From assembly GCA_029239875.1 (NCBI GenBank), contig JARBUD010000008.1, forward strand, positions 62,001-126,000: a stretch of DNA of 64,000 nt, given 5' to 3'. This stretch comes from Xanthobacteraceae bacterium (GTDB taxonomy: Bacteria > Pseudomonadota > Alphaproteobacteria > Rhizobiales > Xanthobacteraceae). Below, in pieces: positions 30,931 through 55,895 of the stretch. How positions within the stretch are numbered: position 1 is the stretch's first letter; each line of letters starts with the position of its first letter. Position numbers and translations under genes: made by a program. The notes under the pieces are model-generated. The model was not told the origin of the DNA. It did not search any database and worked only from the letters and a program-made list of their open reading frames with translations.

Positions 30931-31878
30931 TCAGGTCAATTCGGCCCGTTCCGGCTTTGCGGGGGAGGATTCCGTCGCCGTGTCGCCGGTGAACGACCCA
31001 CGGGTCTTGATCGCCGCGTCGATTGCTATGAGGCGGGCCGCGGAGTCCGCGTGCAGCCGCTCGACCATCCTGCCGCCGAGCGTGATGACGCCCTTGTCCG
31101 CGTTCTCCGGCAGGGTGAAGGCTTCGACGATCGCATGCGCCTCGGCGACGTCGTCGTCCGCAGGGGCGAATAGGTGGTTGGCCATGGCGATCTGCGAGGG
31201 ATGAATGAGCGTCTTGCCGTCGAAGCCGAGCTGGCGGCCCTGGGCGCATTCGCGCGCGAACCCGTCCATGTCCGTGAAGGCATTGTAGACGCCGTCGAAC
31301 GCCGAAAGCCCATGAGCGCGGGCGACCAGCACGGTGTTCAGCAGCCACGGCACCATGGCCGCACGATCATCGCCGGCCAGCACTCGGGTGTCCTTGGCGA
31401 TGTCGTTCGTGCCGAGCACGAGGCCGGTGAGCCGATCGTCGGCCAACTTGCCGCCCTCGCGCACGATCTCGCGCAGGTCGAGCAGGCCGAGCGGGGTCTC
31501 GATCATCGCCCAGAGCTGGAGGTCCGGCCTCGCCCCTGCGGTGCGAAGGAAGCGATAGGCCTCGCCGATGTCGCGGGGGGACTCGACCTTGCTGAGCACC
31601 ACGATGTCGGGACCGGCCCCCGCCACCGCGGCGAGGTCGTCTTCAAACCACCGGGTCCCCCGTGAATTGACCCGGATGGCGACCTGGCGAAAGCCGTAGC
31701 CACCCGCCGACACGGCGCGGCAGGCGCTCTCGCGTGCCTGCGGCTTCATCTCGGGAGCGATGGAATCCTCGAGGTCGATGATGAGGGCGTCGACATCGAG
31801 CTCGCGTATCTTCTCGAGCGCCCGCTCCTTGATGCCGGGCACGTAGAGGACGCTGCGCAGGGGGCGGTCGCCGTTCAT
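30931..31878 (-). CDS. CitE-like CoA-ester lyase (HpcH/HpaI family)
   Basis: TIM-barrel C–C lyase of the CitE/malyl-CoA lyase type, 315 residues. Members cleave (S)-citramalyl-, malyl-, methylmalyl- or related 3-hydroxyacyl-CoA to a shorter CoA ester plus a keto acid. Motifs: RSVLYVPG (8-15), DALIIDLEDSI with the Mg-binding acids (about 30-40), IRVN, MIETPLGLLDL (about 137-147; metal-binding Glu), LVLGTNDIAKD (about 171-181). The ATG overlaps the tctA stop (ATGA, 31875-31878), so it is cotranscribed with tctCBA. With a FAS1-like hydratase and carboxylase in the same cluster, it is the likely final lyase. The exact substrate is not readable. Confidence 0.85.
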   Translation of the reverse strand: MNGDRPLRSVLYVPGIKERALEKIRELDVDALIIDLEDSIAPEMKPQARESACRAVSAGGYGFRQVAIRVNSRGTRWFEDDLAAVAGAGPDIVVLSKVESPRDIGEAYRFLRTAGARPDLQLWAMIETPLGLLDLREIVREGGKLADDRLTGLVLGTNDIAKDTRVLAGDDRAAMVPWLLNTVLVARAHGLSAFDGVYNAFTDMDGFARECAQGRQLGFDGKTLIHPSQIAMANHLFAPADDDVAEAHAIVEAFTLPENADKGVITLGGRMVERLHADSAARLIAIDAAIKTRGSFTGDTATESSPAKPERAELT

Positions 31879-33401
31879 CGCGACACCTCCGTCTCGACGC
31901 CCGGCCGGATATCCCGCTCGCCGCGCCGGCGGCGCCATGTCAGCAGGTTCTGGATCAGGGGCGCAACGAAGATGACGGCCGCCAGGACGAGGCAGATCGC
32001 GGAAATCGGCTCCCTGAGGAACACGCCCATGTCGTCGCCGGACATGACGAGGCTGCGGCGGAAGTTCGATTCCATCATGTAGCCCAGCACCAGGGCCAGC
32101 ACGATGGGCGCCGGCTCGATGTCGACCTTCGACAGGAGATAGCCGACGATGCCGAAGCCGACCGCGACCCCGATCGCGAAGATGTCGTTGGATTCCGAAT
32201 AGGTCCCGAGCAGGCAGGTCGCCGCAACGATGCCGGTCACGACCGACGCCGGGATCGTCGTCAGCCGCACCCATAGGCGCGAGCCGAACAGGCCCAGCAG
32301 CACCATGAAGGGCATGCCGACAAGCAGCGCGATGTAGATCGAATAGGGAATCTCGGGGTGCTGCGTGAAGATCAGCGGCCCCGGCCGCACGCCCTGGATG
32401 GCGAGCGCACCGACGAGGACGGCCGTGCTCGCCTTGCCGGGAATGCCCAGCGCAAGCATGGGCGCGAGCGCGCCGGGCATGCAGGCATTGTTGGCGGTTT
32501 CGGCGGCGACAACGCCTTCCGGATTGCCCTTGCCGAAGGTCTCCGGCGACTTGGAGAGGCGCTTCTGGACCGAATAGGCGGTGATGGACGCGATCGTCGC
32601 GCCGGCGCCGGGGATCACGCCCAGAATGTAGCCGATGAAGGTCGAGCGCACGAGATTGCCGGCGTGCGGCTTCAGGAGGCCGAACTGGGCGGTGAGTCCG
32701 GGCAGTTCCTTCAGCGGGGTCACGCGGTCGCCCGGCGACTCCAGCATGCGCAGCACCTCGGAAAGCGCGAACAGGCCGATCAGGGCGGCGATGAAGGGGA
32801 AGCCGCCGAGCAGATTGTCGGTGAAGACGTAGCGCATCACGCCGTCAACGGGGTCGGCGCCCACGGTGGTCAGCAGCAGCCCGAAGAGAAGCGCGATGAA
32901 GCCGCGCAGGATCGAATGGCCCGCCAGCGTCGAGATCAGGCTGAGACCGAGCACGGCGAGGGCGAAATACTCCGTCGGGCCGAAGGCGAGCGCGATCTTG
33001 GTCATCCACATGACGGTGAAGATCAGCAGCAGGGTGCTGATGATCGATCCCACGGCGGAGCCGAGGATCGACAGGGTCAGCGCCTCGCCCGCCTCGCCGC
33101 GCTCGCGCATCGGGTAGCCGTCCAGCGCCGTTATCGCGGAGGAAGGTTCACCCGGCGTGTTCATGAGGATGGCCGGAATGGCGCCGGAATATTCCGAGGC
33201 CATGTAGAGGCTCACCAGCATGACGACCGACACCACCGGGTCGAGCCCGAAAGTGAAGGGAATGAGCAGGGCCATGCCGACGCCGGCCGACAGGCCGGGA
33301 AGAGCGCCGACGACGTAGCCGATGACCACGCCGCCCAGAAGCCCGGCCATCACCTGCCAGGAAGAGAAAGCCGAAAGACCCGCTAGGAATCCATCGATCA
33401 T
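31875..33401 (-). CDS. tctA: Tripartite tricarboxylate transporter, large permease TctA
   Basis: Large membrane subunit of a TTT carrier, 508 residues, about eleven helices. Family blocks: VVIGYVVGALPGLSAGVGMALLIP region (about 24-48; GLSAGVG), YMASEYSGAIPAILMNTPGEPSSA segment (about 66-90; MNTPG), and a repeat of the same theme near residues 262-345 (GVIPGAGATIAS…MPGALAPMLALGIPGKASTAVL). TTT systems use sodium or proton gradients with a periplasmic receptor to take up carboxylates such as citrate, tartrate or sulfonated analogues. Eight bases follow tctB; its stop overlaps the lyase start. Confidence 0.94.
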   Translation of the reverse strand: MIDGFLAGLSAFSSWQVMAGLLGGVVIGYVVGALPGLSAGVGMALLIPFTFGLDPVVSVVMLVSLYMASEYSGAIPAILMNTPGEPSSAITALDGYPMRERGEAGEALTLSILGSAVGSIISTLLLIFTVMWMTKIALAFGPTEYFALAVLGLSLISTLAGHSILRGFIALLFGLLLTTVGADPVDGVMRYVFTDNLLGGFPFIAALIGLFALSEVLRMLESPGDRVTPLKELPGLTAQFGLLKPHAGNLVRSTFIGYILGVIPGAGATIASITAYSVQKRLSKSPETFGKGNPEGVVAAETANNACMPGALAPMLALGIPGKASTAVLVGALAIQGVRPGPLIFTQHPEIPYSIYIALLVGMPFMVLLGLFGSRLWVRLTTIPASVVTGIVAATCLLGTYSESNDIFAIGVAVGFGIVGYLLSKVDIEPAPIVLALVLGYMMESNFRRSLVMSGDDMGVFLREPISAICLVLAAVIFVAPLIQNLLTWRRRRGERDIRPGVETEVSR

Positions 33402-33409
33402 GGCGCACC

Positions 33410-33919
33410 TCAGGGCAATGGGATGGAGAGGATCATCTCAAAGACGATCTTGCTGAACAGCAGGAAGCCCGCGACATAAGCGAGGATGTGCAGGGGGCGA
33501 CGGCAATCGGCGACCCAGAGCAGGGCCGCGAGGAAGACGCCCATGGTCGGGTAGTAGCCGAGGTGGCGCATGGCGGGTGCAAAGGCCAGCATCAGCCCCA
33601 TGCCCGCTATGACGTGCAGCGGCCGGCCGATGGTCACCAGATGCCCGCTCGGCGGACCGAACAGATGCACGAGGCCGTTGGCCAGAAGCACCAGAGCGCC
33701 GATGCCGAGCAACAGCGCGATGCCGCGCGGGAAGGTCGCGGCGCCGACGCCATAGCCGCCGCCGTCGTCGATGTCGGCGCCGAGCACCCAGAACGTGACG
33801 GCGAACGCCAGGAGCGCGGCCCCGGCAAGGGCGTCTCCCAGTTCCAGGCGGAAGGTGAGATCTTTGTGCTCCGCGGAGATGTCGACGGTCGGCTCATCGT
33901 GTTGAGTTGCCATGGTCAC
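33410..33919 (-). CDS. tctB: Tripartite tricarboxylate transporter, small permease TctB
   Basis: Small membrane subunit of the TTT carrier, 169 residues with four predicted helices (about 31-50, 65-88, 100-120, 126-165) and the family's poorly conserved sequence. Start GTG 33919 has GAGAG seven bases upstream; ATG 33913 is the alternative. It lies between the receptor gene tctC and tctA in the order tctC-tctB-tctA-lyase, all on the minus strand. Confidence 0.88.
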   Translation of the reverse strand: MTMATQHDEPTVDISAEHKDLTFRLELGDALAGAALLAFAVTFWVLGADIDDGGGYGVGAATFPRGIALLLGIGALVLLANGLVHLFGPPSGHLVTIGRPLHVIAGMGLMLAFAPAMRHLGYYPTMGVFLAALLWVADCRRPLHILAYVAGFLLFSKIVFEMILSIPLP

Positions 33920-33989
33920 GGTCAGGCTCTCTCGGTCGAATGCCGGAAGGAGGAGGCCGCCGCGCGGCCTCCGGCGGATCGCTCGACGG

Positions 33990-34961
33990 TCAGCGCGTCA
34001 GCCCGAGCGTCGTCATCCATTCCTTGGTGACGGCGTTCTCCCGCTGGGCGTTCGCGGTGAAGTCCGCCGGCCCCTGGAAAGCGGGAATCAACGCCGATTC
34101 CTCCATGTAGGCCTTCAGCTCGGGCGTCTCGAGGGCCTGCTTGACCGCCTCGGCGAGCTTGGCCTTGATCGGCTCGGGAATACCCTTCGGGCCGATGATG
34201 CCGCGCATCTGCTGCCACGAGGTGTCGGCGGCGTAGCCCTGCTCCTTCAGGGTCGGCACATCCGGGAACTGCGGCACCCGCTTGTCGGACATGACCGCGA
34301 CGACCCGGAGATTGCCGGCCTGCACATGGGTCTTGACGAGGTCGACATAGGCGATCGCGACTTCGGCATGGTTGCCGAGCGCCGCGGTCACGGCGTCGCC
34401 GACGCTGTCGAAAGGCACCCAGCGCACCTTCTTGCTGTCGAGATCGGCGGACTTGGCCATGATCTCCCAGGCGAAATGCCCGCCCGATCCGCGCACGAAG
34501 CCGGCCATCACCACGCTGCCGGGCTTGGCATTGGCGGCCTCGACGAGGTCCTTCATGGACGTGATCTTGCTGTCCTTGTTGACCACGATCAGGTACGGCT
34601 CGTTCACCAGCCGGGCGATCCAGTCGAAGCTGTCCACCTTGTACTGCTTCAGGGTCTGGTTGAACGCGCCGATATGGGTCGAGGTGACGGCGCCGATGGT
34701 GTAGCCGTCCGGCTTGGCGGCTGCGAGCTCGGCCAGCTGGGTGGCCCCACGCCCGCCGGGCTTGTTCTCCACGACCAGCGGCACGCCGAGGATCTTCTCC
34801 ATCGCAATGGCGAGCTTGCGCGCCATTACGTCGGTCGCGCCGCCGGGCGAGACATGGAGCAGATAGCGGATCGGCTTGTCGGGAAAGTCGGCCCTGGCGC
34901 CCGCCGGCATGATGGCGATAGCGGCGGCAATGGCGGCCGTTCGAAGCAAGAACTTCAGCAT
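33990..34961 (-). CDS. tctC: TTT transporter periplasmic receptor (Bug/TctC)
   Basis: Periplasmic solute receptor of the Bug family, 323 residues from ATG 34961 with AGGGAG upstream (the frame is open further but lacks a signal). Signal peptide MLKFLLRTAAIAAAIAIMPAG-like, cleaved near ARA-DFP. The mature start DFPDKPIRYLLHVSPGGATDVMAR (about 26-49) is the Bug signature, and VVENKPGGRG (about 65-74) and AALGNHAEVAIAY follow. It captures a carboxylate for TctAB. A 428-bp gap separates it from the divergent enolase-superfamily gene. That gap has no gene but holds a palindromic operator at 35275. Confidence 0.93.
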   Translation of the reverse strand: MLKFLLRTAAIAAAIAIMPAGARADFPDKPIRYLLHVSPGGATDVMARKLAIAMEKILGVPLVVENKPGGRGATQLAELAAAKPDGYTIGAVTSTHIGAFNQTLKQYKVDSFDWIARLVNEPYLIVVNKDSKITSMKDLVEAANAKPGSVVMAGFVRGSGGHFAWEIMAKSADLDSKKVRWVPFDSVGDAVTAALGNHAEVAIAYVDLVKTHVQAGNLRVVAVMSDKRVPQFPDVPTLKEQGYAADTSWQQMRGIIGPKGIPEPIKAKLAEAVKQALETPELKAYMEESALIPAFQGPADFTANAQRENAVTKEWMTTLGLTR

Positions 34962-35274
34962 GATCGTTCTCCCTAGTTTTTTCGGAGGCCCTTTTATTTC
35001 GGGCTCTATCCTGGCCTTCGGCTGAACCTTTCCAAGTATCCTTCGGCTCATCGCACGACGATTGGCGTCGCTCGTGCGTGTAGTGCTTCAACCAATATTA
35101 CCTACGCCGCCCGACATAAGGCGAGTGTGCATGGGCATGGGTAGCAGGCAAGCCGTTCGACAATTCGGCGGCGACGGAAATGCCTGCCACGACGCGGCTC
35201 CTCCGTCACTATTTCACGACGCCGAACCTATCGACGCCGGGACGAATGATCCACGTTGCGCACCTTAAAAGTTC

Positions 35275-35294
35275 GTAGTAGCAATAGCAACAAC
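35275..35294. promoter_or_regulatory. Candidate TrmB-type operator, site 2
   Basis: GTAGTAGC-AATA-GCAACAAC, an imperfect 20-bp palindrome (6 of 8 arm positions paired), 96 bp before the enolase-superfamily gene and 314 bp before tctC. It matches the site at 42874-42893 on the other side of the cluster under the shared form GTWGTWGY-N4-RCWACWAC, and identity extends outside the arms. The only regulator gene within the cluster is the TrmB-type one, so it is the first candidate to bind. Confidence 0.5.
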
Positions 35295-35389
35295 TAATCG
35301 GAAAGCGCCTGAGAATGTCATTGGCGGCTGAACGCCGCGCGCCGGAAAAGGCGTGTCGGCGCAGACGCCGAAATCGAGGAAACGCCACC

Positions 35390-36466
35390 ATGAGCCGCCT
35401 GCGACGCATCCGTCTCAGCCGCCTTCGGCTGCCATTGATCCGGCCCTATCGCCTGTCCTACCGGACCTTCGATGAATTCGAGCCGTACCTGGTCGAGGTC
35501 GAGGACAGCGACGGCCGCACGGGCTTCGCCGATGCCCACATATCGCCCGGCTCGAGCTCGGAAACCCGGGAGGGCGGCTGGGCGTTCTGCCTCGCCAAGA
35601 TGGACGCGATCATCGGCAAGGCGCCGGAGGATGCGAAGGAGATCGTCCTTGCCGACTTCGCGAAAAGCAAAGTCGCCGCCACCGCGCTCACGGCCGCCAT
35701 CGAGGTGCTCGAAGGCAGCGAGTTGCTCGATGTCACCGACACCCGCAGCCAGCCGCTTCTGACGCCGATCAATGCGTTGGAGCCGGAGGCGATCGCCGCC
35801 GAGGTCGAGAAATGGATCACTGAGGGTTTTCGCACCTTCAAGGTGAAGGTCGGCAAGGATGTCGAGGCCGACCTGGCGCGCGTCGCCGCCATCCAGCAGG
35901 TCGTGTCCGGGCGCGCGACGCTGCGCCTCGACGCAAACCGCGCGTTCAGCCGCGAACAGGGCATCGCCTTCGCCTCGCGACTCGATCCCGCCGGCATCGA
36001 GCTGTTCGAGCAGCCCTGCGATTCCGACGACTGGGAGGCGAATGCCGCGGTCGCCGCGGCCTCGACCGTGCCGCTGATGCTCGACGAGCCCATCTGCACC
36101 CTCGGAGACATCGAGCGCGCCGCGCAGATCGAGAAGGTCGGCTTCTGCAAGCTCAAGCTCAAGCGCTTCGGCAGCCTCCAGCGCCTGGCCGACGGCCTCA
36201 ACGCCGTCCGGGCACACGGCATGAGCCCGGTATTGGGGGACGGCCTGGGCAGCGAGGTGCAGGGCTGGCTGGAAGCCTGCGTCGCGCGCGACACGGTCGA
36301 CAATGCCGGTGAGTTCAACGGCTTCCTGAAGCCGAAGACCGGGCTGTTCGCGAACCCGCTTCCCTTCGAGAGCGGCGAGGTCCGCATGCCCGCCGGCTAT
36401 CGCCCGCAGCTCGATCGCGCGGCGGTCGAGCGTGCCACCATAGCGACCCACGACGTAGCCGCCTGA
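35390..36466 (+). CDS. Mandelate racemase/muconate lactonising enzyme family protein
   Basis: Enolase-superfamily enzyme, 358 residues from ATG 35390 (GAGGAAA upstream). The capping domain covers about 1-125. In the barrel, TFKVKVG (about 150-156) gives the catalytic KxK lysine, RLDANRAF (about 182-189) the first metal aspartate, ELFEQPCD (about 205-212) the second metal acid, LMLDEPIC (about 230-237) the third, and KLKLKRFG (about 254-261) the opposite lysine, the MLE-subgroup arrangement. Reactions are proton abstraction next to a carboxylate: racemisation, cycloisomerisation or dehydration. First gene of a plus-strand run with carboxylase and acyl-CoA synthetase, so it probably prepares the substrate acid before CoA activation. 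Confidence 0.85.
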   Translation: MSRLRRIRLSRLRLPLIRPYRLSYRTFDEFEPYLVEVEDSDGRTGFADAHISPGSSSETREGGWAFCLAKMDAIIGKAPEDAKEIVLADFAKSKVAATALTAAIEVLEGSELLDVTDTRSQPLLTPINALEPEAIAAEVEKWITEGFRTFKVKVGKDVEADLARVAAIQQVVSGRATLRLDANRAFSREQGIAFASRLDPAGIELFEQPCDSDDWEANAAVAAASTVPLMLDEPICTLGDIERAAQIEKVGFCKLKLKRFGSLQRLADGLNAVRAHGMSPVLGDGLGSEVQGWLEACVARDTVDNAGEFNGFLKPKTGLFANPLPFESGEVRMPAGYRPQLDRAAVERATIATHDVAA

Positions 36467-36505
36467 CGCGCCGGTCGCGCCTCGATCGGAGACGTCCTCA
36501 GCAAG

Positions 36506-38056
36506 ATGCAGGATTCAAAGATGCCTCACGACGTAATGCTTGAGAAACTCGATGAGCGCCGCACGCAGGCGCGGCGCATGGGCGGGCCGGAAAAGCTGGC
36601 CAAGCGCGCCGAGCGCGGCCAGCTCAATGCCAAGGAGCGGATGGACGCTCTCGTCGACCCCGACAGCTTCTTCGAGGTCGGGCTGCTCGGCGCTTCCGGC
36701 GTGTTCGACGCGGATATCGAAGCGACGCCCCGCGACGGCAAGATCACCGGCTTCGGCAGGATCGAGGGGCGGGACGTCGGGGTGGTGGTGAACGACTTCA
36801 CCACCAAGGGCGCCTCCACCAGCGCCACCAACTCGAAGAAGATGGGCTACATCCGCCGCACCTGCACCGAACGGGGCATGCCCTTCATCCATATCGGCGA
36901 ATCCACCGGCGCGCGCCTTCCCGACGCCATGGGCTCGAAGGGAATGGGCGCGCTGCTCGGCAACGACACGACCCAGTTCAAGCGCATGCGGGAGACTCCG
37001 TGGGTCGCGGCGGCGCTCGACACCTCGTTCGGCTCGTCTGCCTGGCTTTGCTGCTGCGCCGATTTCGCGGTGATGAAGAAGGGCTCGATCATGTCGGTGT
37101 CGAGCCCGCGCCTCGTTTCCATGGCCATCGGCGAGAAGGTCGACCTCGAAGAGCTCGGCGGCTGGCGGCTGCATGCCGAGCAGACCGGCCTCATCGACTA
37201 CTTCGTCGACACCGATGCCGAGGCGATGGCCGTGATACGCCGGTTCCTCTCCTACATGCCCGGCCACAATGGCGAGCTCGCGCCCGGCGCGGCCGTCGCC
37301 GAGGGGTCGGGCGAGGACCAGGACCGCATCCTCGCCGTGCTGCCGGAGAAGCGCACGCAGGTCTACAACATGAAGAAGATCATCGAGGTGATCTTCGACC
37401 GCGACAGCTTCTTCGAGATCAAGGCCCGCTTCGGCAGGTCGGCGGTGGTGGGTCTTGCCCGGCTCGACGGGCAGGCGGTGGGCGTCATCGCCAACAACCC
37501 GCAGGTAGGCGGCGGCGCGCTCTCGGCGGAGGCCTGCCGCAAGATCATCGATCTCACCGTGCTGTGCGACAGCTTCAACCTGCCGATCGTGCGCCTCGTC
37601 GACACGCCGGGCTTCGTCGTCGGCACCGAGGCCGAGCGGCGCGGCGCGCCGGGACACATCATGAACTTCATGAACGCCACCTGCCTGACCACGGTGCCCT
37701 CGGTCACCGTGCTGTGCCGCAAGGCCTATGGGCGCGCCTATGTCGCGATGGGCGGCGGCGCCCACAACGACGCGATGATCGCCTGGCCGACCGCCGAGGT
37801 GAGCTTCATGGACCCGGTGTTCGCGACCAACATCGTCCACAACCTCACCGCCGGGCAGGAGGGCTTCGAGGACGCGCTGGCGCATATCCAGAAGGACCTC
37901 GAGATCTGGGACATGGCCCGCATCTTCTCGGCGCAGGACGTCGTGAAGCCTCAGGAAACCCGCGCCTGGGTCATCCGCATGCTGGACATCCAGCGCCGCC
38001 GGCGCTCGGGCGGCGTAGGCCAGCACCTGATGCGCACGTGGCCGACGAGCTTTTGA
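36506..38056 (+). CDS. Acyl-CoA carboxylase, carboxyltransferase subunit
   Basis: Carboxyltransferase component of a biotin-dependent acyl-CoA carboxylase (PccB/MccB/GcdA class), 516 residues. Two crotonase-like halves are visible: the N half with RMDALVDPDSFFEVG (about 44-58), DFTTKGAS and the oxyanion segment ESTGARLPDAMGSKG (about 131-145), and the C half with GVIANNPQVGGGALSAEACRKI-type sequence (about 328-349), VDTPGFVVGTEAE (about 365-377), and GRAYVAMGGG (about 410-419). ATG 36521, with AGGA upstream, is an alternative start. Biotin carboxylase and biotin carrier are encoded on the other strand at 41.2–42.8 kb, completing a three-gene enzyme. The acyl-CoA substrate is not deducible. 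Confidence 0.9.
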   Translation: MQDSKMPHDVMLEKLDERRTQARRMGGPEKLAKRAERGQLNAKERMDALVDPDSFFEVGLLGASGVFDADIEATPRDGKITGFGRIEGRDVGVVVNDFTTKGASTSATNSKKMGYIRRTCTERGMPFIHIGESTGARLPDAMGSKGMGALLGNDTTQFKRMRETPWVAAALDTSFGSSAWLCCCADFAVMKKGSIMSVSSPRLVSMAIGEKVDLEELGGWRLHAEQTGLIDYFVDTDAEAMAVIRRFLSYMPGHNGELAPGAAVAEGSGEDQDRILAVLPEKRTQVYNMKKIIEVIFDRDSFFEIKARFGRSAVVGLARLDGQAVGVIANNPQVGGGALSAEACRKIIDLTVLCDSFNLPIVRLVDTPGFVVGTEAERRGAPGHIMNFMNATCLTTVPSVTVLCRKAYGRAYVAMGGGAHNDAMIAWPTAEVSFMDPVFATNIVHNLTAGQEGFEDALAHIQKDLEIWDMARIFSAQDVVKPQETRAWVIRMLDIQRRRRSGGVGQHLMRTWPTSF

Positions 38057-38067
38057 GGGGGCTGATC

Positions 38068-40263
38068 ATGACCATTCAGGATACCCACGCGCTGCGCGCG
38101 GCCCGCGGGGAAGCGCTCATCGCCGAGGCTCGCGCCAACGGGCGCGGCAGCCTGGACGAGGCGGCCGGCAAGGCGCTGCTGGCCGATTTCGGCGTGCGCG
38201 TGCCGCGTTCGCGCTTCGCGGCGAATGCCGTTCAGGCGGCTGAGATCGCCGGCGAGCTCGATGGCCCCTTCGTCGTGAAGGTCGTCTCGCCCGAGATCCT
38301 GCACAAGTCCGATGCCGGCGGCGTCGCCCTTCGCCTGGCCGACCCCGACGCCGTCGGCGCGGCGGTCGAGGCGATGGCCGCGAAGCCGCTGATCGCCGCC
38401 GCCAAGGTCGATGGCTGGCTGGTCGAGGAGATGATGCCGTCCGGCCGCGAAATCGTCATCGGCGGCTATCGCGATCCCCAGTTCGGCCCGATGATCATGG
38501 TCGGGCTCGGCGGCATCTTCGTCGAAGTGCTGCGCGACATCTCCTTCCGCATCTGCCCGATCGAGGCGAAGGATGCCGAGGAGATGCTGGCCGAGCTGAA
38601 GGGCCATGCCCTGCTGGAGGGCGCGCGGGGCGAGGCGGGCATCGACCAGGCGGCGCTCGTCGACGTCATGCTGCGCATCGGCGGCATCGATGGCCTGCTG
38701 ATGCGCCACCGGGCCGACATAGCGGAGCTCGACCTCAATCCGGTGATCACCTCGCCGAACGGCGCCGTCGCCGTCGACGCGCGGGTGATCCTGACGGAGC
38801 AGGCGGAAACGGACGCTCCTTCCGAGGCGTCGGATGCGTCCCCGCTCGAAGTTTTCCGCCCGCTGTTCGAGCCGCGCACCGTGGCGGTGCTCGGCGCTTC
38901 GACCAAGGACGTCGCCATCGCCAACACCTTCATCCGCCGGATGAAGGCCTTCGGCTATGCGGGCAGCATCTACCCGATCCATCCGGCGGCCGACGAGATC
39001 GAGGGCCTGAAGGCATATCCGAGCCTCGCCGAGACGCCCGAGCCGGTGGACTACGCCTATATCGCCGTCGGTGCCGAGCGCATTCCCGGCATCCTCGCCG
39101 CCGCGGGCGGGCGCTGCCGCATCGCGCAGGTCATCTCTTCCGGCTTCGGTGAACTCGAGGAGGGTAAGGCGCTTCAGGACGCGCTCGTCGAGGGCGCCCG
39201 CGCGGGCGGGGCGCGGATCCTGGGGCCGAACTGCCTCGGGACCTATTCTCCTCGCGGCGGCCTCACCTTTCCGGCCGACGCACCGAAGGAAGTCGGCACG
39301 ATCGGCATCGTCTCGCAGTCGGGCGGACTGACGACGGACATCATCAAGCGCGGAGAATGGCGGGGCCTGCGCTTCAGCGGCGCGGTGACCATCGGCAACA
39401 GTGCCGATGTGAAACCGCATGAGCTGCTGGCCTACTACCTCGCCGATCCGCAGACCCGGGCCATCGGCATCTACATGGAGGACGTGAAGCACGGGCGTGC
39501 CTTCTACGAGCAGCTGAAGAAGGCGAACAAGCCGGTCGTCATCCTCAAGGGCGGGCGCTCGGTGCTCGGACGATTGGCGGCCGCCTCGCACACCGGCGCA
39601 CTCGCCGGTGACGAGAAGGCATGGGAGGCGCTGCAGAAGCAGACTCCTGCCGTCCTGGTCGCCACCGTCGACGAGTTCATCGACCTGCTGCTGGCGCTGC
39701 AGCATTTCGACCTCCACCCCGACCATCCCACCCGCACCGTCACGCTGTTCGGCAATGGCGGCGGATCGAGCGTGCTGGGCACGGACGCCTTCGCGGGCGC
39801 GGGGCTGGAGGTCGCGCCCTATGGCGAGGAAGCACGCCACCTGCTGGAGGCGATGAAGCTTCCGCCGGGCACCAGCGTCGCCAACCCGATCGACACGCCG
39901 GTGCGCACGCTGCAGGAGAAGGACGGCTTCGTGGCCGGCGAAATCCTCGACATCGTCTATGGCCACGCCCATCCCGATGCCGTGCTGATGCACCTCAACC
40001 TGTCGGCTTTCGTCGGACGAGGTTCGGTAGACCCGATCGACAACCTGTTCACGGTGGTGGGGCAGACCAAGGAGAAATGGCCGGGCGGGCCGCATTTCGC
40101 CCTGGCCCTGCGCACGGACGGCTCGGCGGCGCTCGACGATCGCCGGCGCCATTATCGCGAAAAGGCCCGCGCCATCGGCGTGCCGGTTTTCGACGAGATC
40201 GCCCCGGCGGCGAAGGCTCTCGCCGGCATCGGGCATCTCGAGCGGCGACTGGGCGGACGTTGA
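38068..40263 (+). CDS. ADP-forming acyl-CoA synthetase, beta-alpha fused
   Basis: Nucleoside-diphosphate-forming acyl-CoA synthetase, 731 residues, start ATG 38068 just after the carboxyltransferase gene. It makes an acyl-CoA from acid, ATP and CoA, giving ADP and phosphate. The ATP-grasp (beta) part comes first (about 25-245; FVVKVVSPEILHKSDAGGV, GLGGIFVEVLRD), then the CoA-binding Rossmann part (about 260-390; EPRTVAVLGASTKDVA, ILGPNCLGTYSP) and the ligase part with the phosphohistidine loop AASHTGALAGD (about 507-517). This order is reversed relative to the alpha-beta layout of E. coli PatZ-like proteins. Context says it activates the acid brought in by TctABC. Confidence 0.88.
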   Translation: MTIQDTHALRAARGEALIAEARANGRGSLDEAAGKALLADFGVRVPRSRFAANAVQAAEIAGELDGPFVVKVVSPEILHKSDAGGVALRLADPDAVGAAVEAMAAKPLIAAAKVDGWLVEEMMPSGREIVIGGYRDPQFGPMIMVGLGGIFVEVLRDISFRICPIEAKDAEEMLAELKGHALLEGARGEAGIDQAALVDVMLRIGGIDGLLMRHRADIAELDLNPVITSPNGAVAVDARVILTEQAETDAPSEASDASPLEVFRPLFEPRTVAVLGASTKDVAIANTFIRRMKAFGYAGSIYPIHPAADEIEGLKAYPSLAETPEPVDYAYIAVGAERIPGILAAAGGRCRIAQVISSGFGELEEGKALQDALVEGARAGGARILGPNCLGTYSPRGGLTFPADAPKEVGTIGIVSQSGGLTTDIIKRGEWRGLRFSGAVTIGNSADVKPHELLAYYLADPQTRAIGIYMEDVKHGRAFYEQLKKANKPVVILKGGRSVLGRLAAASHTGALAGDEKAWEALQKQTPAVLVATVDEFIDLLLALQHFDLHPDHPTRTVTLFGNGGGSSVLGTDAFAGAGLEVAPYGEEARHLLEAMKLPPGTSVANPIDTPVRTLQEKDGFVAGEILDIVYGHAHPDAVLMHLNLSAFVGRGSVDPIDNLFTVVGQTKEKWPGGPHFALALRTDGSAALDDRRRHYREKARAIGVPVFDEIAPAAKALAGIGHLERRLGGR

Positions 40264-40269
40264 ACAACG

Positions 40270-40293
40270 AGGGGCGGTCCGAGGACCGCCCCT
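40270..40293. terminator. Bidirectional stem-loop between convergent genes
   Basis: AGGGGCGGTC-CGAG-GACCGCCCCT, perfect 10-bp arms and a 4-base loop, centred in the 57-bp gap between the acyl-CoA synthetase and the TrmB gene. No long T-run on either side, yet the stem is strong and placed exactly between the two stops. Confidence 0.6.
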
Positions 40294-40320
40294 ACGAGCC
40301 CGGCTGAACGTTCGGAAATG

Positions 40321-41232
40321 TCAGCTGAGACCGGTGCGCTTCTTGAACGAGGCGGCCTGTTCGGGCGAGAAGCAGGCGAGGCGCAGGTCGCGCAGATAGG
40401 GGCCGAACGCCTCGTCGATCTGCGGCCCCAGGCGGGCGAATATCTCCGCCATGTAATAGTCGTGGCGCACCAGCGATTCCGCCAGATTCACGATAGGTCC
40501 GTTGCGGGTATAGGCGGCGATCACCTCGCCCTCCACGGTCGCGGTCAGCGTCTCGACGTGATCGATCGACACGGTGAAAAGGTTGTCGGCCGTGCCCATG
40601 CGCACGCCATTGCCTTCGTGGATGTAGACCCGACAGGTCGGACCGAAGCGGAACTCTTCCGCATCCGGCCCGAACAGCACGATGAAGATCTCGATCCCGC
40701 GCGCCGCGGCCTTCCGCAGCGCCTCCTTGTGGCGGCGCAGGACCGTGTCGCTGGCCTTGATCCAGATCGAGGTGTCGCTTTCCTCGATCAGCGTGTCGAT
40801 CTTGGAGTGGACGCTGCCCTCTCCTCTGAGCATCCAGACATATTCGCCGTTGGACGAAGGCGCGATCGAGGAGAGGCGCTCGGAAAGATCCGTGCACAGC
40901 GCGCGTGTCTGGTTGGAAAGTGCGGCCAGGAAATCGTTGGGCGGTGCCGCCACATAGCGCACCGGGTTCTCGCTCACCGGAAGCACGGCGCCGCGTTGCG
41001 CCAATGCTTCCAGCGCGTGATAGGTGTTCGGGCGCGGGACATTGGCGCCTTTCGAGATCTCATAGGCGGTCGAGGGCGGCATGCGCAGCAACTGGATGTA
41101 GATCTTCGCCTCGTACTCGGTGAAACCGAGCCGCTTCAGGTCGGCGAGAAGGTCATCCGATTCATTTGCCGCTATGGCCAGCTTGCCTGCCAATGTGGTC
41201 TCCAATGACGCTTTTGCCCGGCGTGGCTTCAC
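40321..41232 (-). CDS. TrmB-type transcriptional regulator
   Basis: A 303-residue regulator with an N-terminal TrmB winged helix (about 28-82): LKRLGFTEYEAKIYIQLL, then SKGANVPRPNTYHALEALAQRGAV as recognition helix and wing. The rest is the TrmB effector domain, with a phospholipase-D-like fold pattern (SKIDTLIEESDTSIWIKASD, about 143-162). TrmB proteins are best known as archaeal sugar regulators and are uncommon in alphaproteobacteria. The GTG start overlaps the biotin carboxylase stop (GTGA, 41229-41232), so it is cotranscribed with the carboxylase genes and likely controls them through the palindromes at 35275 and 42874. Confidence 0.85.
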   Translation of the reverse strand: MKPRRAKASLETTLAGKLAIAANESDDLLADLKRLGFTEYEAKIYIQLLRMPPSTAYEISKGANVPRPNTYHALEALAQRGAVLPVSENPVRYVAAPPNDFLAALSNQTRALCTDLSERLSSIAPSSNGEYVWMLRGEGSVHSKIDTLIEESDTSIWIKASDTVLRRHKEALRKAAARGIEIFIVLFGPDAEEFRFGPTCRVYIHEGNGVRMGTADNLFTVSIDHVETLTATVEGEVIAAYTRNGPIVNLAESLVRHDYYMAEIFARLGPQIDEAFGPYLRDLRLACFSPEQAASFKKRTGLS

Positions 41233-42590
41233 GCGGCCAGGAGCCGCGTGCGATGGGCGTCGATGAAGCCCGTGTGGACGTCACCGCTGACAAAGTTCTC
41301 GTCGCCCAGACACGCCAGCAGGAAATGGCGGTTACTGCGGATGCCGTCAATGGAAAAGGCCCGCAGCGCCTCGACCGCGCGCCGGCGTGCCTCCTCACGG
41401 TCCTCGCCCCAGGCCACGACCTTGGCGACCATCGGATCGTAGAACGGCGTCACGACGTCCCCCTCGCGGTAGCCGCTGTCTATCCGCAGATGCGCCATGT
41501 CCACCGGTGGCCGGAAGGTGGCGAGAGGGCCCGGCGCCGGCATGAACATCTTTGCCGGATCTTCGGCATAGAGCCGGCATTCGATGGCATGGCCATGCGT
41601 CTTGATCTCGGCCTGCGGGATGAAGGCGAGCGAACCGCGCGCGAGCTCGATCTGCATGGCGACGAGATCGCGGCCGGTGATCATCTCCGTGACGGGATGC
41701 TCGACCTGGATGCGCGTGTTCATCTCGAGGAAGAAGAACTCGAAGCTCTCCGCGTCGACGATGAACTCAACCGTGCCGGCGCCGCTGTACCGCGTCGCCT
41801 CGCACAGCCTCACGGCGGCGGCCGCCATGGCGTCGGTGACGCGAGGCGGCAGGCCCGGCGCGCGGGCTTCCTCGATCACCTTCTGGAAGCGGCGCTGCAA
41901 CGAGCAGTCGCGCTCGAACAGGTGGATGGCACGGCCGTCGCCGAAGCCGAACACCTGGATCTCCACGTGGCGGGCCTTGGGTACGAAGCGCTCGAGGAAG
42001 ACCGCTCCATTGCCGAAGGATTTCTGCGCCATCGACTGGGTCGCCACGACGGTGTCGGTCAACTTGTCCGGGCCATCGACGCGCCGCATGCCGATGCCGC
42101 CGCCGCCGCCCGCCGCCTTGACCAGCAGCGGGTAGCCGACCGCCTCCGCAGCCTGCTCCAATCCTTCCAGCATGCCGGGCTCGAAGCGGGTGCTGCCCGG
42201 AACCACCGGCACGCCGGCGGCTTCCGCGATCTGCCGGGCGCGCTGCTTGTCGCCCATCTGGCGGATGGTCTCCGGCGAGGGGCCGATCCAGACCAGCCCC
42301 GCATCGATGACGCTCTGTGCGAATTCCGCATTCTCGGACAGGAAGCCATAGCCGGGATGGATCGCGTCGGCCCCCGTCTCGCGTGCGGCATCCAGCACCT
42401 TCTCCACGCGCAGATAGCTCTCCCGCGCCGGCGCGGGTCCTACGCCGACGGACTGGTCCGCAGCCTGGACATGGGCGCTGTCGGCGTCGGCGTCGGAATA
42501 GATGGCGACGTTCGCGAGGCCGAGAGCGCGGCTCGAGCGGAAGACGCGGCAGGCGATCTCCCCCCGATTGGCAACGAGAATCTTCTTCAT
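41229..42590 (-). CDS. Biotin carboxylase subunit of acyl-CoA carboxylase
   Basis: ATP-dependent carboxylation of biotin, 453 residues, standard AccC length. Motifs: KKILVANRGEIACRVFRS start (2-19), PGYGFLSENAEFA (about 79-91), glycine-rich ATP loop KAAGGGGGIGMRRV (about 158-171), FLEMNTRIQVEHPVTE with catalytic Glu/Asn/Arg (about 284-299) and the EC-RxxxE-like AIECRLYAEDP (about 330-340). It lies four bases after the biotin-carrier gene and overlaps the TrmB gene. As this cluster has its own carrier and carboxyltransferase, it is probably a dedicated catabolic carboxylase, not the essential AccC. Confidence 0.92.
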   Translation of the reverse strand: MKKILVANRGEIACRVFRSSRALGLANVAIYSDADADSAHVQAADQSVGVGPAPARESYLRVEKVLDAARETGADAIHPGYGFLSENAEFAQSVIDAGLVWIGPSPETIRQMGDKQRARQIAEAAGVPVVPGSTRFEPGMLEGLEQAAEAVGYPLLVKAAGGGGGIGMRRVDGPDKLTDTVVATQSMAQKSFGNGAVFLERFVPKARHVEIQVFGFGDGRAIHLFERDCSLQRRFQKVIEEARAPGLPPRVTDAMAAAAVRLCEATRYSGAGTVEFIVDAESFEFFFLEMNTRIQVEHPVTEMITGRDLVAMQIELARGSLAFIPQAEIKTHGHAIECRLYAEDPAKMFMPAPGPLATFRPPVDMAHLRIDSGYREGDVVTPFYDPMVAKVVAWGEDREEARRRAVEALRAFSIDGIRSNRHFLLACLGDENFVSGDVHTGFIDAHRTRLLAA

Positions 42591-42594
42591 CGAT

Positions 42595-42816
42595 TCAGGC
42601 CTCGATGCGGGCGACGACCGTGCCCTCGGTCACGGTGTCACCCTCGGCAACGAGGATTTCGATAATCGCGCCGTCCTCGGGCGCCGAGACCGGGATCTCC
42701 ATCTTCATGGACTCGAGGATCAGGATCACCTCCTCTTCGCCCACCTTGTCGCCGACCGCCTTCTCGATCTTCCAGACGTTGCCTGTGATCTCTGTTTTGA
42801 TGTCGACCTTTGCCAT
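42595..42816 (-). CDS. Biotin carboxyl carrier protein (short form)
   Basis: A stand-alone biotinyl domain of 73 residues from ATG 42816 (an ATG at 42846 is less likely). The biotin-accepting lysine is in ILESMKMEI (about 33-41), a variant of the usual EAMKM with Ser for Ala; GDKVGEEEV and EGDTVTEGTVVARIEA are the flanking hairpins. It lacks the extra N-terminal part of the fatty-acid BCCP, in line with catabolic carboxylases. First gene of the minus-strand run carrier–carboxylase–TrmB. Confidence 0.9.
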   Translation of the reverse strand: MAKVDIKTEITGNVWKIEKAVGDKVGEEEVILILESMKMEIPVSAPEDGAIIEILVAEGDTVTEGTVVARIEA

Positions 42817-42873
42817 CGTTTCCTCCGTGATGCCCGCTGCGGGCATTGACCTTCATTCTAGGGTGTCGCATTA

Positions 42874-42893
42874 GTAGTTGCAATGACAACTAC
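42874..42893. promoter_or_regulatory. Candidate TrmB-type operator, site 1
   Basis: GTAGTTGCAATGACAACTAC, perfect 7-bp arms (7 of 8 over the longer arm) in the 96-bp gap between the divergent biotin-carrier and hydratase genes. It matches the site at 35275-35294, read on the opposite strand, at about 20 of 25 positions, extending beyond the arms (TTA…CGA). It lies 58 bp before the carrier start and 20 bp before the hydratase start, good for blocking both. Confidence 0.55.
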
Positions 42894-42912
42894 GATAAGT
42901 GGGAGAAATGCC

Positions 42913-43743
42913 ATGGCGGGGCTCGACGCTTGGATCGGCCGCATGGAGACGTCGGTCGCGCGGCTCGATGGCTGGCCGCTCGCCGGCCTTCATGCGGCGC
43001 TGGACAACAACGAAGCAGTCGAAAGCGGGACGGCGCTGCCGCCGACCGGGCAGTGGCTCTATTTTCAGCCGCTCGCGCCGCAGTCTGGCCTCGGCCCGGA
43101 TGGGCATCCCGAGCGCGGAGGCTTTCTGCCGCCCATCGAACTGCCCCGCCGCATGTGGGCGGCGAGCGACATGACCTATCACCGTCCAATGTGCGTCGGC
43201 GACGAGGTCGAGAAGCGCTCGCGGATCGCCAATGTGTCGTCCAAGAGCGGGCGGACCGGCACGCTCGCCTTCGTCACCGTGGAGCACTCCTATCTCAGGA
43301 GCGGCATGCTGATGCTCTCCGAGACGCAGACACTGGTCTATCGCGAGGCGCCCTCGCCCGGCGAGCCGCCTCCCCCGCCGCAGCCGGCACCGGACGGTGC
43401 CCTCTGGTCGCACGTGGCGACGCCGGATTCCCGGCTGCTGTTCCGCTACTCGGCGGTGACGTTCAACGCCCACCGCATCCACTATGACGAACCCTATGCG
43501 CGGCAGGTCGAGGGCTATCCGGGGCTGGTCGTCCACGGGCAGCTGACGGCGACCTTGCTGATCGAGGCATTCCGCAGGGAACGGCCGACATTCGTGATCG
43601 GCGGCTTTTCGTTCCGGGCGATGCGGCCGGTCTTTGCCGGGACCACCATCCATCTCGAAGGCGGCGCCGACGGCGACGGGTATCGCCTGTGGGCGCGCGA
43701 CCAGGACGGCGCCGTAATCGTCGAGGCGAAGGTCCGTCCTTGA
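42913..43743 (+). CDS. FAS1-like/MaoC hydratase (mesaconyl-C4-CoA hydratase type)
   Basis: Hot-dog-fold CoA hydratase/dehydratase, 276 residues from ATG 42913 (GGGAG seven bases upstream). The N-terminal half is the FAS1-like dehydratase domain; the C-terminal half carries the hydratase signature, FNAHRIHYDEPYA…GYPGLVVHGQLTATLL (about 188-219), with the catalytic Asp/His pair. Relatives hydrate mesaconyl-C4-CoA or itaconyl-CoA to citramalyl-CoA, which CitE-like lyases then cleave. A CitE-like lyase lies in this cluster, so a hydratase–lyase pair is likely. Substrate chain not determined. Confidence 0.82.
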   Translation: MAGLDAWIGRMETSVARLDGWPLAGLHAALDNNEAVESGTALPPTGQWLYFQPLAPQSGLGPDGHPERGGFLPPIELPRRMWAASDMTYHRPMCVGDEVEKRSRIANVSSKSGRTGTLAFVTVEHSYLRSGMLMLSETQTLVYREAPSPGEPPPPPQPAPDGALWSHVATPDSRLLFRYSAVTFNAHRIHYDEPYARQVEGYPGLVVHGQLTATLLIEAFRRERPTFVIGGFSFRAMRPVFAGTTIHLEGGADGDGYRLWARDQDGAVIVEAKVRP

Positions 43744-43809
43744 GCGCTGCAACGAGCGGCTGATGCCCGTTCTTCGGCATCGGACCGCGGGCTGAAGAAG
43801 GGGAGAAGA

Positions 43810-44568
43810 ATGACGGACAATCGGGAACTCGCCGGCCATACCGCGCTGGTGACCGGAGCGGCCCGCAACGTGGGACGCGCCATCGCCGTGGCTCTGGCAC
43901 GAGCCGGCGCGAGGGTGGTGGTGCATGCGCGCTCCTCGGTGGACGCGGCGAACGAGACCGTGGCGCGGTGCCAGCAGGCATTCGGCGGCGCGGACGGGGC
44001 TTTCGCGCATTTCGCCGATCTGACCGACCCCGAAGCCGTGCGCGTCATGTTCGGGGAGGTCGAAGCGCGCTTCGGCGGGCTCGACCTCCTGGTCCACAAC
44101 GCCGCCGAGCGTGCGGACGGCCCCTTCGACGAGATCAGCTTTGCCGAATGGCACCGGATCGTCGGCAGCATCCTCGACAGCGCCTTCCTGTGCGACCAGG
44201 CGGCGCTGCCGCTGCTGAGGCGTAGCGCCGCCGCCGGCATCATCCATATCGGCGGCGTCGCCGCGCATGTGGGGGTCCGCCATCGCGCCCACGTGTCGGC
44301 GGCGAAGGCCGGCATCGTCGGGCTCACCCGGGCCCTCGCCGCCGAGCTGGCTCCCGAGCGGATCACGGTGAACTGCATCTCGCCGGCCCAGATGGAGACC
44401 GAGCGCAAGGGGCACCTGCCCGAGCATTTCCGGCAGCGCCCGGTGCCGCTCGGCCGGCCGGGACAGCCCGACGAACTCGCCAGCCTCGTCTGCTTCCTTG
44501 CCGGCCCCTCCGGCCGCTTCATCACCGGCCAGACCATCCATCTCAATGGCGGGTGGTACATGGGATGA
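43810..44568 (+). CDS. SDR-family protein lacking the usual catalytic residues
   Basis: Short-chain dehydrogenase fold, 252 residues. The cofactor loop is TGAARNVGRAIA (about 14-25; Asn where Gly is usual), HNAA replaces NNAG (about 95), the position of the catalytic serine reads HIGGVAAH (about 149-156), and the YxxxK site reads HVSAAK (Val where Tyr belongs, about 163-168). So the lysine stays while Ser and Tyr are gone. The fold end ITVNCISPAQME and GQTIHLNGGWYMG is normal. It follows the hydratase gene by 66 bp. It may bind NAD(P) for another chemistry or be regulatory; a normal alcohol dehydrogenase role is doubtful. Confidence 0.8.
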   Translation: MTDNRELAGHTALVTGAARNVGRAIAVALARAGARVVVHARSSVDAANETVARCQQAFGGADGAFAHFADLTDPEAVRVMFGEVEARFGGLDLLVHNAAERADGPFDEISFAEWHRIVGSILDSAFLCDQAALPLLRRSAAAGIIHIGGVAAHVGVRHRAHVSAAKAGIVGLTRALAAELAPERITVNCISPAQMETERKGHLPEHFRQRPVPLGRPGQPDELASLVCFLAGPSGRFITGQTIHLNGGWYMG

Positions 44569-47595: not shown

Positions 47596-48326
47596 CCTGC
47601 ATCCCCGCCGCGACCGAAAGGAGCCTCGGCCTCGTCATCGATCTCGACACCTGCGTCGGCTGCCAGGCCTGCGTGACGTCTTGCAAGGAATGGAACACGG
47701 GCGGCCATATGGCGCCGCTGACGGACATGAAGCCTTATGGCGGCGGCGTCGACGGCGTGTGGTTCAACCGGGTGCACACTCTGGAGCACATCACCGATGC
47801 CGGCGGGCGGACCGTGCATTTCCCGCGCTCCTGCCTGCACTGCGCGCAGCCGGCATGCGTCAGCGTGTGCCCCACCGGCGCCTCCTACAAGCGCACCTCC
47901 GACGGCATCGTGCTGGTGGACGAGGACAAGTGCATCGGCTGCAAACTGTGCAGCTGGGCCTGCCCCTACGGTGCACGTGAGTTCGACGTCGATGTCGGCG
48001 TGATGAAGAAGTGCACGCTGTGCGTCGACCGCATCTACAACGAGCACCTGAGCGTCGAGGATCGCGTGCCGGCCTGCGTCGCCGCCTGCCCGACCGGCGC
48101 CCGCCATTTCGGCGATCTCGGCGATCCGAATTCGGCTGCCTCGATCCTCGTCGAGGAACGCGGCGGCGTCGCCCTGATGCCCGAGCTGGGCTACGAGCCC
48201 ACCAATCGCTATCTGCCGCCCCGCGCGCGCTCGGAGAGGGCGCCCAAGGTGGCGGCTGCGGCGCTCGAAGACGCGGCGCCGCAGGGCGGCTTCCTCGGCT
48301 GGGTCGACCGCCTGCTGGCGAGATAA
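47592..48326 (+). CDS. soeB: Sulfite dehydrogenase iron–sulfur subunit SoeB
   Basis: Electron-transfer subunit, 244 residues, with sixteen cysteines in four clusters: CVGCQACVTSCKEWN (about 17-31), CLHCAQPACVSVCPTG (about 82-97), CIGCKLCSWACPYGA (about 116-130) and CTLC…CVAACPTGA (about 143-170). It passes electrons from SoeA to the membrane anchor. The ATG overlaps the soeA stop (ATGA, 47592-47595). A long Ala-rich tail follows the last cluster. Confidence 0.87.
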   Translation: MTCIPAATERSLGLVIDLDTCVGCQACVTSCKEWNTGGHMAPLTDMKPYGGGVDGVWFNRVHTLEHITDAGGRTVHFPRSCLHCAQPACVSVCPTGASYKRTSDGIVLVDEDKCIGCKLCSWACPYGAREFDVDVGVMKKCTLCVDRIYNEHLSVEDRVPACVAACPTGARHFGDLGDPNSAASILVEERGGVALMPELGYEPTNRYLPPRARSERAPKVAAAALEDAAPQGGFLGWVDRLLAR

Positions 48327-48329
48327 GAG

Positions 48330-54480: not shown

Positions 54481-54508
54481 GGGGGCCTCCTTTGAGTTCG
54501 ATGCGCGC

Positions 54509-55675: not shown

Positions 55676-55779
55676 GCGTCTCTCTCCTTTTTGACTGAGT
55701 GTCGGGTTCGTCGAGCGGTTGCCGGCAGCGTTTCGTTGGCAACCACGGCGCTACGGAAACGATAGAGTGCAAGTAAATC

Positions 55780-55877: not shown

Positions 55878-55895
55878 GAAGACCCGCGCCGAGGA

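Follow-up and report, generated by a model that had tools for sequence, protein, structure and literature searches.

A mobile block of carboxylase, hydratase and lyase genes in a Xanthobacteraceae bacterium, possibly for an imported sulfur-bearing acid

Leucine breakdown runs through methylcrotonyl-coenzyme A (CoA) carboxylase (MCC), methylglutaconyl-CoA hydratase and hydroxymethylglutaryl-CoA (HMG-CoA) lyase. The gene block studied here, at positions 30931-44568 of a 64,000-nucleotide stretch from a Xanthobacteraceae bacterium (contig JARBUD010000008.1, positions 62,001 to 126,000; the whole stretch is called the window below), has the same logic of carboxylation, hydration and cleavage, but its carboxyltransferase (CT) is nearer to propionyl-CoA carboxylase (PCC) than to MCC, its hydratase is of the MaoC and not the crotonase type, and its lyase is of the CitE type and not an HMG-CoA lyase. 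A second described relative is the itaconate and methylsuccinate cluster (ict, ich, ccl, mcd, mmgE) of Pseudomonas and Cupriavidus; the itaconate route needs activation, a hydratase and a lyase, and the CoA transferase is absent from the cluster in some bacteria (PMC12290011). The block shares its CoA activation, MaoC-type hydratase and CitE-type lyase, but has an ADP-forming synthetase for the CoA transferase, adds a biotin carboxylase, an enolase-superfamily enzyme and a tripartite tricarboxylate transporter (TTT), uses a hydratase and lyase that are separate paralogs, and is adjoined by sulfite genes. A third is the set of organosulfonate genes of Ruegeria pomeroyi for taurine, cysteate and sulfolactate (CuyA, SuyAB, SoeABC and the sulfite exporter CuyZ), in which sulfite dehydrogenase and sulfite/sulfate exporter families stand beside catabolic genes as they do here; the block differs in holding no known desulfonating enzyme among its genes and in a chemistry that would be CoA- and biotin-based (PMC4334477).

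We give roughly even credence to the reading that the block is a catabolic cassette that moves between genomes and acts on an imported acid of multiple charge, most likely one bearing sulfur, with linked release of sulfite. The acid probably carries sulfur because the block travels with sulfite-disposal genes in many relatives, and a sulfonate is the simplest case of such an acid. The block holds exactly 12 genes in alternating strand runs, lyase-TctA-TctB-TctC (-), ENO-CT-ACS (+), regulator-BC-BCCP (-) and MaoC-SDR (+), with intergenic distances of -4 to +70 bp inside each run. TctA and BC were scanned with NCBIfam only, and TctB and BCCP with Pfam only. The genes are as follows.

30931..31878, minus strand: CitE/HpcH-type CoA-ester lyase (LYASE); Pfam PF03328 126 bits; citE 154 and RipC_Ccl 142 bits, both far below cut-off.
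31875..33401, minus strand: TctA, large permease of the TTT; 508-amino-acid open reading frame (ORF) beside TctB and TctC; found in 29/45 related loci.
33410..33919, minus strand: TctB; Pfam PF07331 46.8 bits.
33990..35051, minus strand: TctC, periplasmic binding protein; Pfam PF03401 147 bits.
35390..36466, plus strand: enolase-superfamily enzyme of the muconate-lactonizing (MLE) subgroup (ENO); Pfam PF13378.
36506..38056, plus strand: acyl-CoA carboxylase carboxyltransferase (CT); Pfam PF01039 308 bits.
38068..40263, plus strand: ADP-forming acyl-CoA synthetase (ACS), a single chain with the ATP-grasp domain first; PF13549, PF13380, PF13607; acetate-CoA ligase model 435 bits, cut-off 1200.
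40321..41232, minus strand: TrmB-type regulator; PF01978 72 bits; found in 32/45 related loci.
41229..42590, minus strand: biotin carboxylase (BC); NCBIfam PRK08591 558 bits, cut-off 597.
42595..42816, minus strand: biotin carboxyl carrier protein (BCCP); PF00364 65 bits; ESMKMEIP motif.
42883..43743, plus strand: MaoC/FAS1-like hydratase (MAOC); 208 bits to the solved itaconyl-CoA hydratase 8khg.
43810..44568, plus strand: short-chain dehydrogenase (SDR), FabG-like; PF13561 173 bits; FabG 203 bits, cut-off 222.

The three transporter genes stand together as expected of a TTT, TctB and TctC being assigned by Pfam and TctA by its ORF, its place and its annotated counterpart: no NCBIfam model matched TctA, and the gene at its position on a Sulfitobacter plasmid is annotated as "tripartite tricarboxylate transporter permease". 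A first-pass annotation, made from the letters of the window, had named a TTT carrier, an ADP-forming synthetase, a three-part carboxylase, a MaoC hydratase, a CitE-like lyase and an enolase-superfamily enzyme, and all of these lie where it placed them. The TrmB-type regulator was missing from its gene list, and the SDR that it called odd proved to be an ordinary FabG-like one. It had also remarked on the lack of HMG-CoA lyase, acyl-CoA dehydrogenase and CoA transferase, and none of the 12 genes matched NCBIfam or Pfam models of these, the search for HMG-CoA lyase covering the block and not the rest of the genome; a CaiB gene lies outside the block at 52766-53971 (-). It saw a gene set for import, activation, carboxylation, hydration and cleavage that is distinct from both leucine and itaconate breakdown; our results agree with this, the order of carboxylation, hydration and cleavage being one that we infer. 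Nor did a description of the gene set turn up in the openly licensed literature searched, in keeping with its claim that the pathway is undescribed. Known enzyme families appear here in a new combination, and the case for a new organosulfonate route is credible but unproven.

The gene set, which the first-pass annotation had treated as one cluster, was recurrent across 45 related loci (CT 61-99% identical) found by a pattern scan, not exhaustive, of a genome collection. Their hosts were Hyphomicrobiales, Rhodobacterales, Rhodospirillales-type metagenome-assembled genomes (MAGs), Alcaligenaceae (Advenella, Pollutimonas, Paralcaligenes, Candidimonas) and a few gammaproteobacterial MAGs, groupings that draw partly on knowledge of the organism names. 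By tblastn, CT was found in 45 of these loci, ACS in 43, ENO in 37, BCCP in 36, BC and TctC in 35 each, TrmB in 32, TctA in 29, TctB in 20, LYASE and SDR in 16 each and MAOC in 12; many of the loci end early at contig edges or at the 10-kb flank. CT, ACS and ENO were thus the most constant genes of the block, the lyase and hydratase being more variable. Gene calls over flanks of at most 20 kb gave MaoC in 14/22 and lyase in 13/22 stretches; such neighbor tallies are approximate, since the calls come from a codon-usage script that recovered CT in 42/45 loci.

The block is a unit that moves between genomes. All 12 genes occur at 90-99% identity in G427, a genome of the same genus as the window, in another genomic setting, and the presence of the same block at another site in this relative indicated that the block boundaries are real. 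On the Sulfitobacter plasmid the block forms a complete island of AbrB, a YeiH-type exporter, lyase, TctABC, metK, ENO, CT, ACS, regulator, BioY, BC, BCCP and MaoC, with IS elements within the surrounding 20 kb. Seven ORFs of the window to the left of the block had no match in any of the 45 loci. It is from the setting in G427, the plasmid island and the unmatched left flank that movement follows. A tRNA-Phe gene lies at 30590-30665 of the window and ends 266 bases before the block; tRNA genes are common insertion sites for mobile islands.

The sulfite-handling genes were the most informative neighbors, a link to sulfur that the first-pass annotation did not draw. Directly to the right of the block the window holds three such features.

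44668..49268, plus strand: SoeABC-type cytoplasmic sulfite dehydrogenase, three genes, a molybdenum enzyme, directly after the SDR.
49265..51064, plus strand: anion transporter, an in-frame stretch of 599 amino acids that we take to belong to the SulP family.
51061..51999, plus strand: YeiE-like LysR regulator; NCBIfam YeiE 205 bits, cut-off 480; a different LysR family scores highest, at 206 bits.

No NCBIfam SoeA model matched the SoeA of the window, and the only solved chain matched was a thiosulfate reductase. Homologs of this SoeA lay 1-2 kb from sulfoacetaldehyde acetyltransferase (Xsc, above cut-off) in G390, G397, G403 and G409, four of the six genomes with both. A listing for R. pomeroyi gives SoeABC as a sulfite dehydrogenase, next to pta and tauR (PMC4334477). 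Because of this proximity and that listing, SoeABC is the best reading of the molybdenum enzyme. SoeA adjoins the block in Ancylobacter, Bosea sp. 117, a Xanthobacteraceae MAG and G428 (the genomes concerned being G385, G386, G410 and G428), and the gene order SoeABC-SulP is kept in G385 and G428, not in G386. Within the same genus (25 genomes), SoeA occurred in 4/5 genomes with the block and in 0/20 without it (Fisher p 0.0004); two entries of the genus and order survey, G421 and G438, appear identical to G386 and G410.

Other hosts carry other sulfite genes. An Alsobacter block has SorA above the curated cut-off (714 vs 600), and in Microvirga pakistanensis SorA-like (255 bits) and SorB-like (28 bits) genes, both below cut-off, directly follow MaoC. 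TauE-family genes occur in two Advenella and in Pollutimonas, and YeiH occurs in nine loci. Several of these genes stand inside the strand runs of the block: TauE after BC in the two Advenella and beside the lyase in Pollutimonas, SorA after MaoC or TctA, and YeiH beside the lyase. In Salmonella, YeiH contributes most to sulfite resistance, and YeiE is a sulfite-binding protein (PMC12880088). YeiH (Pfam PF03601) occurs at about one copy per genome and lay within 9 kb of CT in 9/28 genomes; by chance, about 0.14 would be expected within 10 kb of CT, taking 30 copies, a window of 20 kb and a genome size of 4.4 Mb. Genome samples differed between searches and were not identical sets (hydratase 30, YeiH 28, Xsc and SoeA 24 each). 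At least one of SoeA, SorA, YeiH and TauE was found in 13/22 block neighborhoods (798 kb) and in 0/29 comparison stretches (455 kb). The former represent 21 genomes with flanks of up to 20 kb, five stretches being shorter than 40 kb; the latter, which were not drawn at random, comprise other CT loci, itaconate-type loci and lyase loci and add up to less sequence. In those 13 neighborhoods, genes for oxidizing or exporting sulfite are thus linked to the block, with SoeABC in the window, as in organosulfonate clusters; they are absent from the other nine and from G427.

Several observations weigh against a sulfur-bearing substrate. SoeA, SorA, YeiH and TauE are all missing from 9/22 block neighborhoods, and G427 has the block without SoeA at E <=1e-100 and without a match to any sulfite query in its 40-kb stretch. 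Five genomes of the same order carry SoeA without a close CT, and SulP also occurs in 3/29 comparison stretches. The sulfite families were chosen after being seen, so that the count of 13/22 is post hoc, and YeiE, YeiH by TIGR00698 (128 vs 232.6), one of two SorA, and SorB score below NCBIfam cut-offs. No known C-S-cleaving enzyme was recognized among the 12 block genes, SuyAB and CuyA not having been searched for. Xsc was above cut-off in only 9/24 genomes, not including that of the window; for this reason a general release route through sulfopyruvate, sulfoacetaldehyde and Xsc was rejected. No sulfonate that we considered makes carboxylation necessary: on paper, none of sulfosuccinate, sulfoacetate, 3-sulfopropionate and sulfomethylsuccinate accounts for it. 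The aconitase and metK copies in some blocks are left unexplained by the proposed pathway.

Some further sulfur-related genes were seen near the block or its relatives. A choline-sulfatase gene (20587-22101 of the window, 876 bits, cut-off 433) lies about 9 kb to the left of the block. To the right of the YeiE-like gene, 52766-61503 holds a CaiB CoA transferase, a flavin reductase, a metabolite/H+ symporter, an SsuA-like ABC transporter and an SfnG/RutA-like monooxygenase (192 bits, cut-off 383), and may be a separate sulfonate or sulfone locus. A sulfopyruvate-decarboxylase-beta-like gene (L050, 1278-1907; 124 bits, cut-off 221.5) near a CT-ACS pair is a lone hint; ENO was not found in that 12-kb contig. 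Under the entry L177/L178, Paracoccus onubensis has Xsc, a pta-like gene and SoeABC together, and in a Rhodobacteraceae MAG SoeABC and Xsc occur with an acetate-kinase-like and a TauE-like gene, both cases recognized partly by eye. Some neighbors throughout this study (CaiB, BioY, SulP, mutase, FdrA and similar) were identified by eye and not by model.

In the pathway that we propose for a sulfur-bearing acid, TctABC would import the acid, as its family suggests, and ENO would act on the free acid, abstracting the proton next to a carboxylate and then either racemizing the acid or eliminating a beta-leaving group such as sulfite. The ADP-forming synthetase would use ATP to form the CoA thioester, which BC, BCCP and CT, to judge from the enzyme class of their homologs, would carboxylate. 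The MaoC hydratase would then add water and the CitE-type lyase, by analogy with its relatives, would cleave the product to acetyl-CoA or another acyl-CoA and a 2-oxo acid. SoeABC or SorA could oxidize the freed sulfite, or YeiH, TauE or SulP could expel it, with disposal presumably controlled by the YeiE-like sulfite sensor. A more specific version, in which the substrate is a sulfonated di- or tricarboxylate that is imported by TctABC, racemized or relieved of sulfite by ENO, and then activated with CoA, carboxylated, hydrated and split by retro-Claisen cleavage, by a gene set that lacks Xsc, SuyAB, CuyA and any oxygenase, is offered as a tentative possibility that we think less likely than not. 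If it is true, the carboxylase would have a new acyl-CoA specificity, and ENO might be the first sulfo-lyase of the enolase superfamily.

ENO carries the marks of the MLE subgroup, two catalytic lysine sites and D/E/D metal ligands, which also aligned to 1jpm. Among 27 orthologs, KxK (K151, K153), D181, E207 and K256 are invariant and D232 is conserved in at least 90%. Further invariant basic residues surround K256 (K254, K258, R259) and would suit a strongly negative substrate. The AlphaFold model has a pLDDT of 92, and the nearest folds among the 50 rows shown are MLE, N-acylamino acid racemase and dipeptide epimerase at 18-24% identity, so the fold search names the subgroup only and no substrate. 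A dipeptide epimerase was rejected, since ENO has GEFNG where one would expect the DxD motif near the C-terminus that marks these enzymes. We infer a racemase or eliminase of a polyanionic acid. The MmgE/PrpD protein of the itaconate cluster is a methylsuccinate isomerase for which an enolate mechanism is proposed (PMC12290011); by analogy with it, ENO may be a racemase of a substituted succinate. An MmgE/PrpD-family gene stands within two Aurantimonas blocks (L026, 6173-7546; L027, 6144-7517).

The carboxylase resembles PCC in fold family and in its kinds of subunit (BC, BCCP, CT), and the first-pass annotation would have been overturned had it been an ordinary PCC. That identity was rejected. 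The genome has its own PCC at C7 (955 bits to the solved PCC 6ybp, which we take to be that of Methylorubrum extorquens), with a mutase-like gene nearby (by eye), and the block CT is only 32% identical to it. At the specificity position, presumably D422/D407 of PCC, the genome's own PCC has Asp, whereas all 42 aligned block CTs (those that gene calls recovered among the 45 loci) have Val; the third CT of the genome (C62) also has Val there. The block also differs in spreading the enzyme over three separate genes and in its other neighbors. Against solved structures, CT scored 272 bits with PCC, at most 161 with MCC and 152 with geranyl-CoA carboxylase. This nearness to PCC speaks for, without proving, alpha- rather than gamma-carboxylation.

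The hydratase and lyase bear on an alternative in which the block would be a variant for itaconate, mesaconate or methylsuccinate, with activation, hydration to a citramalyl-CoA-like ester and cleavage to acetyl-CoA and pyruvate, the carboxylase serving elsewhere and the sulfite genes being bystanders. We consider it unlikely, although, of the solved structures, itaconyl-CoA hydratase is closest to the hydratase, a CitE-type lyase is present, and MAOC is the only match for this hydratase in the window's own genome, which thus lacks a second one. Neither enzyme belongs to the itaconate families by model: MAOC scored 20.6 bits against RipB (NF038241, cut-off 340) and LYASE 142 bits against RipC/Ccl (NF038242, cut-off 375). 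In a hydratase tree of 33 rows, 16/17 block-linked copies, from alpha- and betaproteobacteria, formed one clade (support 100/99), the exception being one Paralcaligenes copy. Five itaconate-type lyases formed a separate branch (100, quick tree), and block lyases intermixed with six unlinked lyases, one of which adjoins a MaoC-type gene near succinate dehydrogenase genes (by eye). Sequence relationships thus place the hydratase and lyase as paralogs of the itaconate enzymes, not members. In 7/30 genomes searched (G393, G394, G398, G400, G401, G402, G406), a second hydratase and a second lyase stand about 2.1 kb or less apart at a site other than the block, which makes plain itaconate a less likely substrate. 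The branched or unsaturated C4-C6 acids on which the first-pass annotation would have screened the enzymes stay within the range of candidate substrates. Five of these pairs were inspected; in G400 and G402 a CaiB-type gene (by eye) separates hydratase and lyase, in G394 an MmgE/PrpD-type gene does, and in G398 and G401 neither does. On the scores, the clades and these separate pairs, an itaconate operon proper was rejected, and the variant in addition leaves no role for CT and BC, which are among the most conserved genes.

A second alternative keeps the whole proposed pathway but assigns it a sulfur-free acid, the sulfite genes being companions because sulfur-oxidizing hosts share gene islands. 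G427 and the nine neighborhoods that lack sulfite genes fit it. It is nonetheless unlikely in our estimation, since sulfite genes of several unrelated kinds turn up repeatedly across hosts, some of them within the strand runs, and the linkage of YeiH is far above chance.

Aconitase genes of one family lie near the block in 11/45 loci (L028, L031, L032, L033, L035, L037, L039, L043, L048, L056, L057), and the one tested is AcnA above the curated cut-off. They would fit a tricarboxylate route, a chemistry proposed in this analysis, in which carboxylation turns itaconyl- or mesaconyl-CoA into aconityl-CoA, the addition of water gives citryl-CoA, and this is split into acetyl-CoA and oxaloacetate, the logic of leucine breakdown with a carboxylate for the methyl group. 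The TTT-type carrier also favors it, as does the lyase, for which citE scores highest among NCBIfam models (154 bits). We nevertheless think it quite improbable: CT is closer to the alpha-carboxylating PCC than to MCC or geranyl-CoA carboxylase, direct hydration of itaconyl-CoA would be simpler, the sulfite genes are left unexplained, and the term aconityl-CoA was not met in the literature checked. AcnA as a stand-in for MaoC was rejected, as G395, G396 and G409 hold both. Most improbable is a carboxylase that is in effect PCC, finishing propionyl-CoA freed by a beta-methylmalyl-CoA-type lyase, as the mixing of the block lyase with unlinked lyases, one of them beside that MaoC-type gene, and the nearness of CT to PCC among solved structures might suggest, against which stand the genome's own PCC with its mutase-like neighbor, the change from Asp to Val and the lack of a mutase or epimerase in the block.

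Other genes accompany the block in some hosts. BioY-type genes occur in 9/45 loci, annotated as BioY on the Sulfitobacter plasmid, and their presence fits because the block has a biotin enzyme. MetK overlaps or stands near the block most clearly on the Sulfitobacter plasmid (L158, 17748-18914), in two Microvirga (L034, L061) and in Pseudotabrizicola (G409). A role as a copy resistant to Michael acceptors was rejected, as cysteine counts gave no support; those near the Roseibaca and Jannaschia blocks have an insert in common and may be housekeeping copies.

Sister clusters in Cupriavidus necator N-1 (pBB2), on a Variovorax SRS16 plasmid and in L065 and L066 have a CT about 50-57% identical to that of the block and share import, CoA activation and carboxylation. 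They differ in holding two CTs with BC and BCCP, a CaiB CoA transferase for the synthetase, and carriers of TctC or TAXI-TRAP type; MaoC is present in pBB2, and neither ENO nor sulfite genes were seen in the stretches examined. Their annotations name the enzyme class only, and they seem to be further import-activate-carboxylate systems. In L069, FdrA-like, AllG-type, carbamate kinase-like and amidase-like genes (by eye) adjoin a CT pair, BCCP and a separate synthetase half.

If the reading of a sulfur-bearing acid is true, a horizontally spread pathway of alpha- and betaproteobacteria would feed on an acid not yet recognized as a bacterial substrate, would do so through a biotin carboxylase without an assigned function, and would return its sulfur as sulfite or sulfate, adding a carboxylating route to known sulfonate breakdown. 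It would also give functions to an ENO group, a CT subfamily and a TctC group that so far bear general names only. Even without the sulfur part, the block would represent a conserved, testable pathway.

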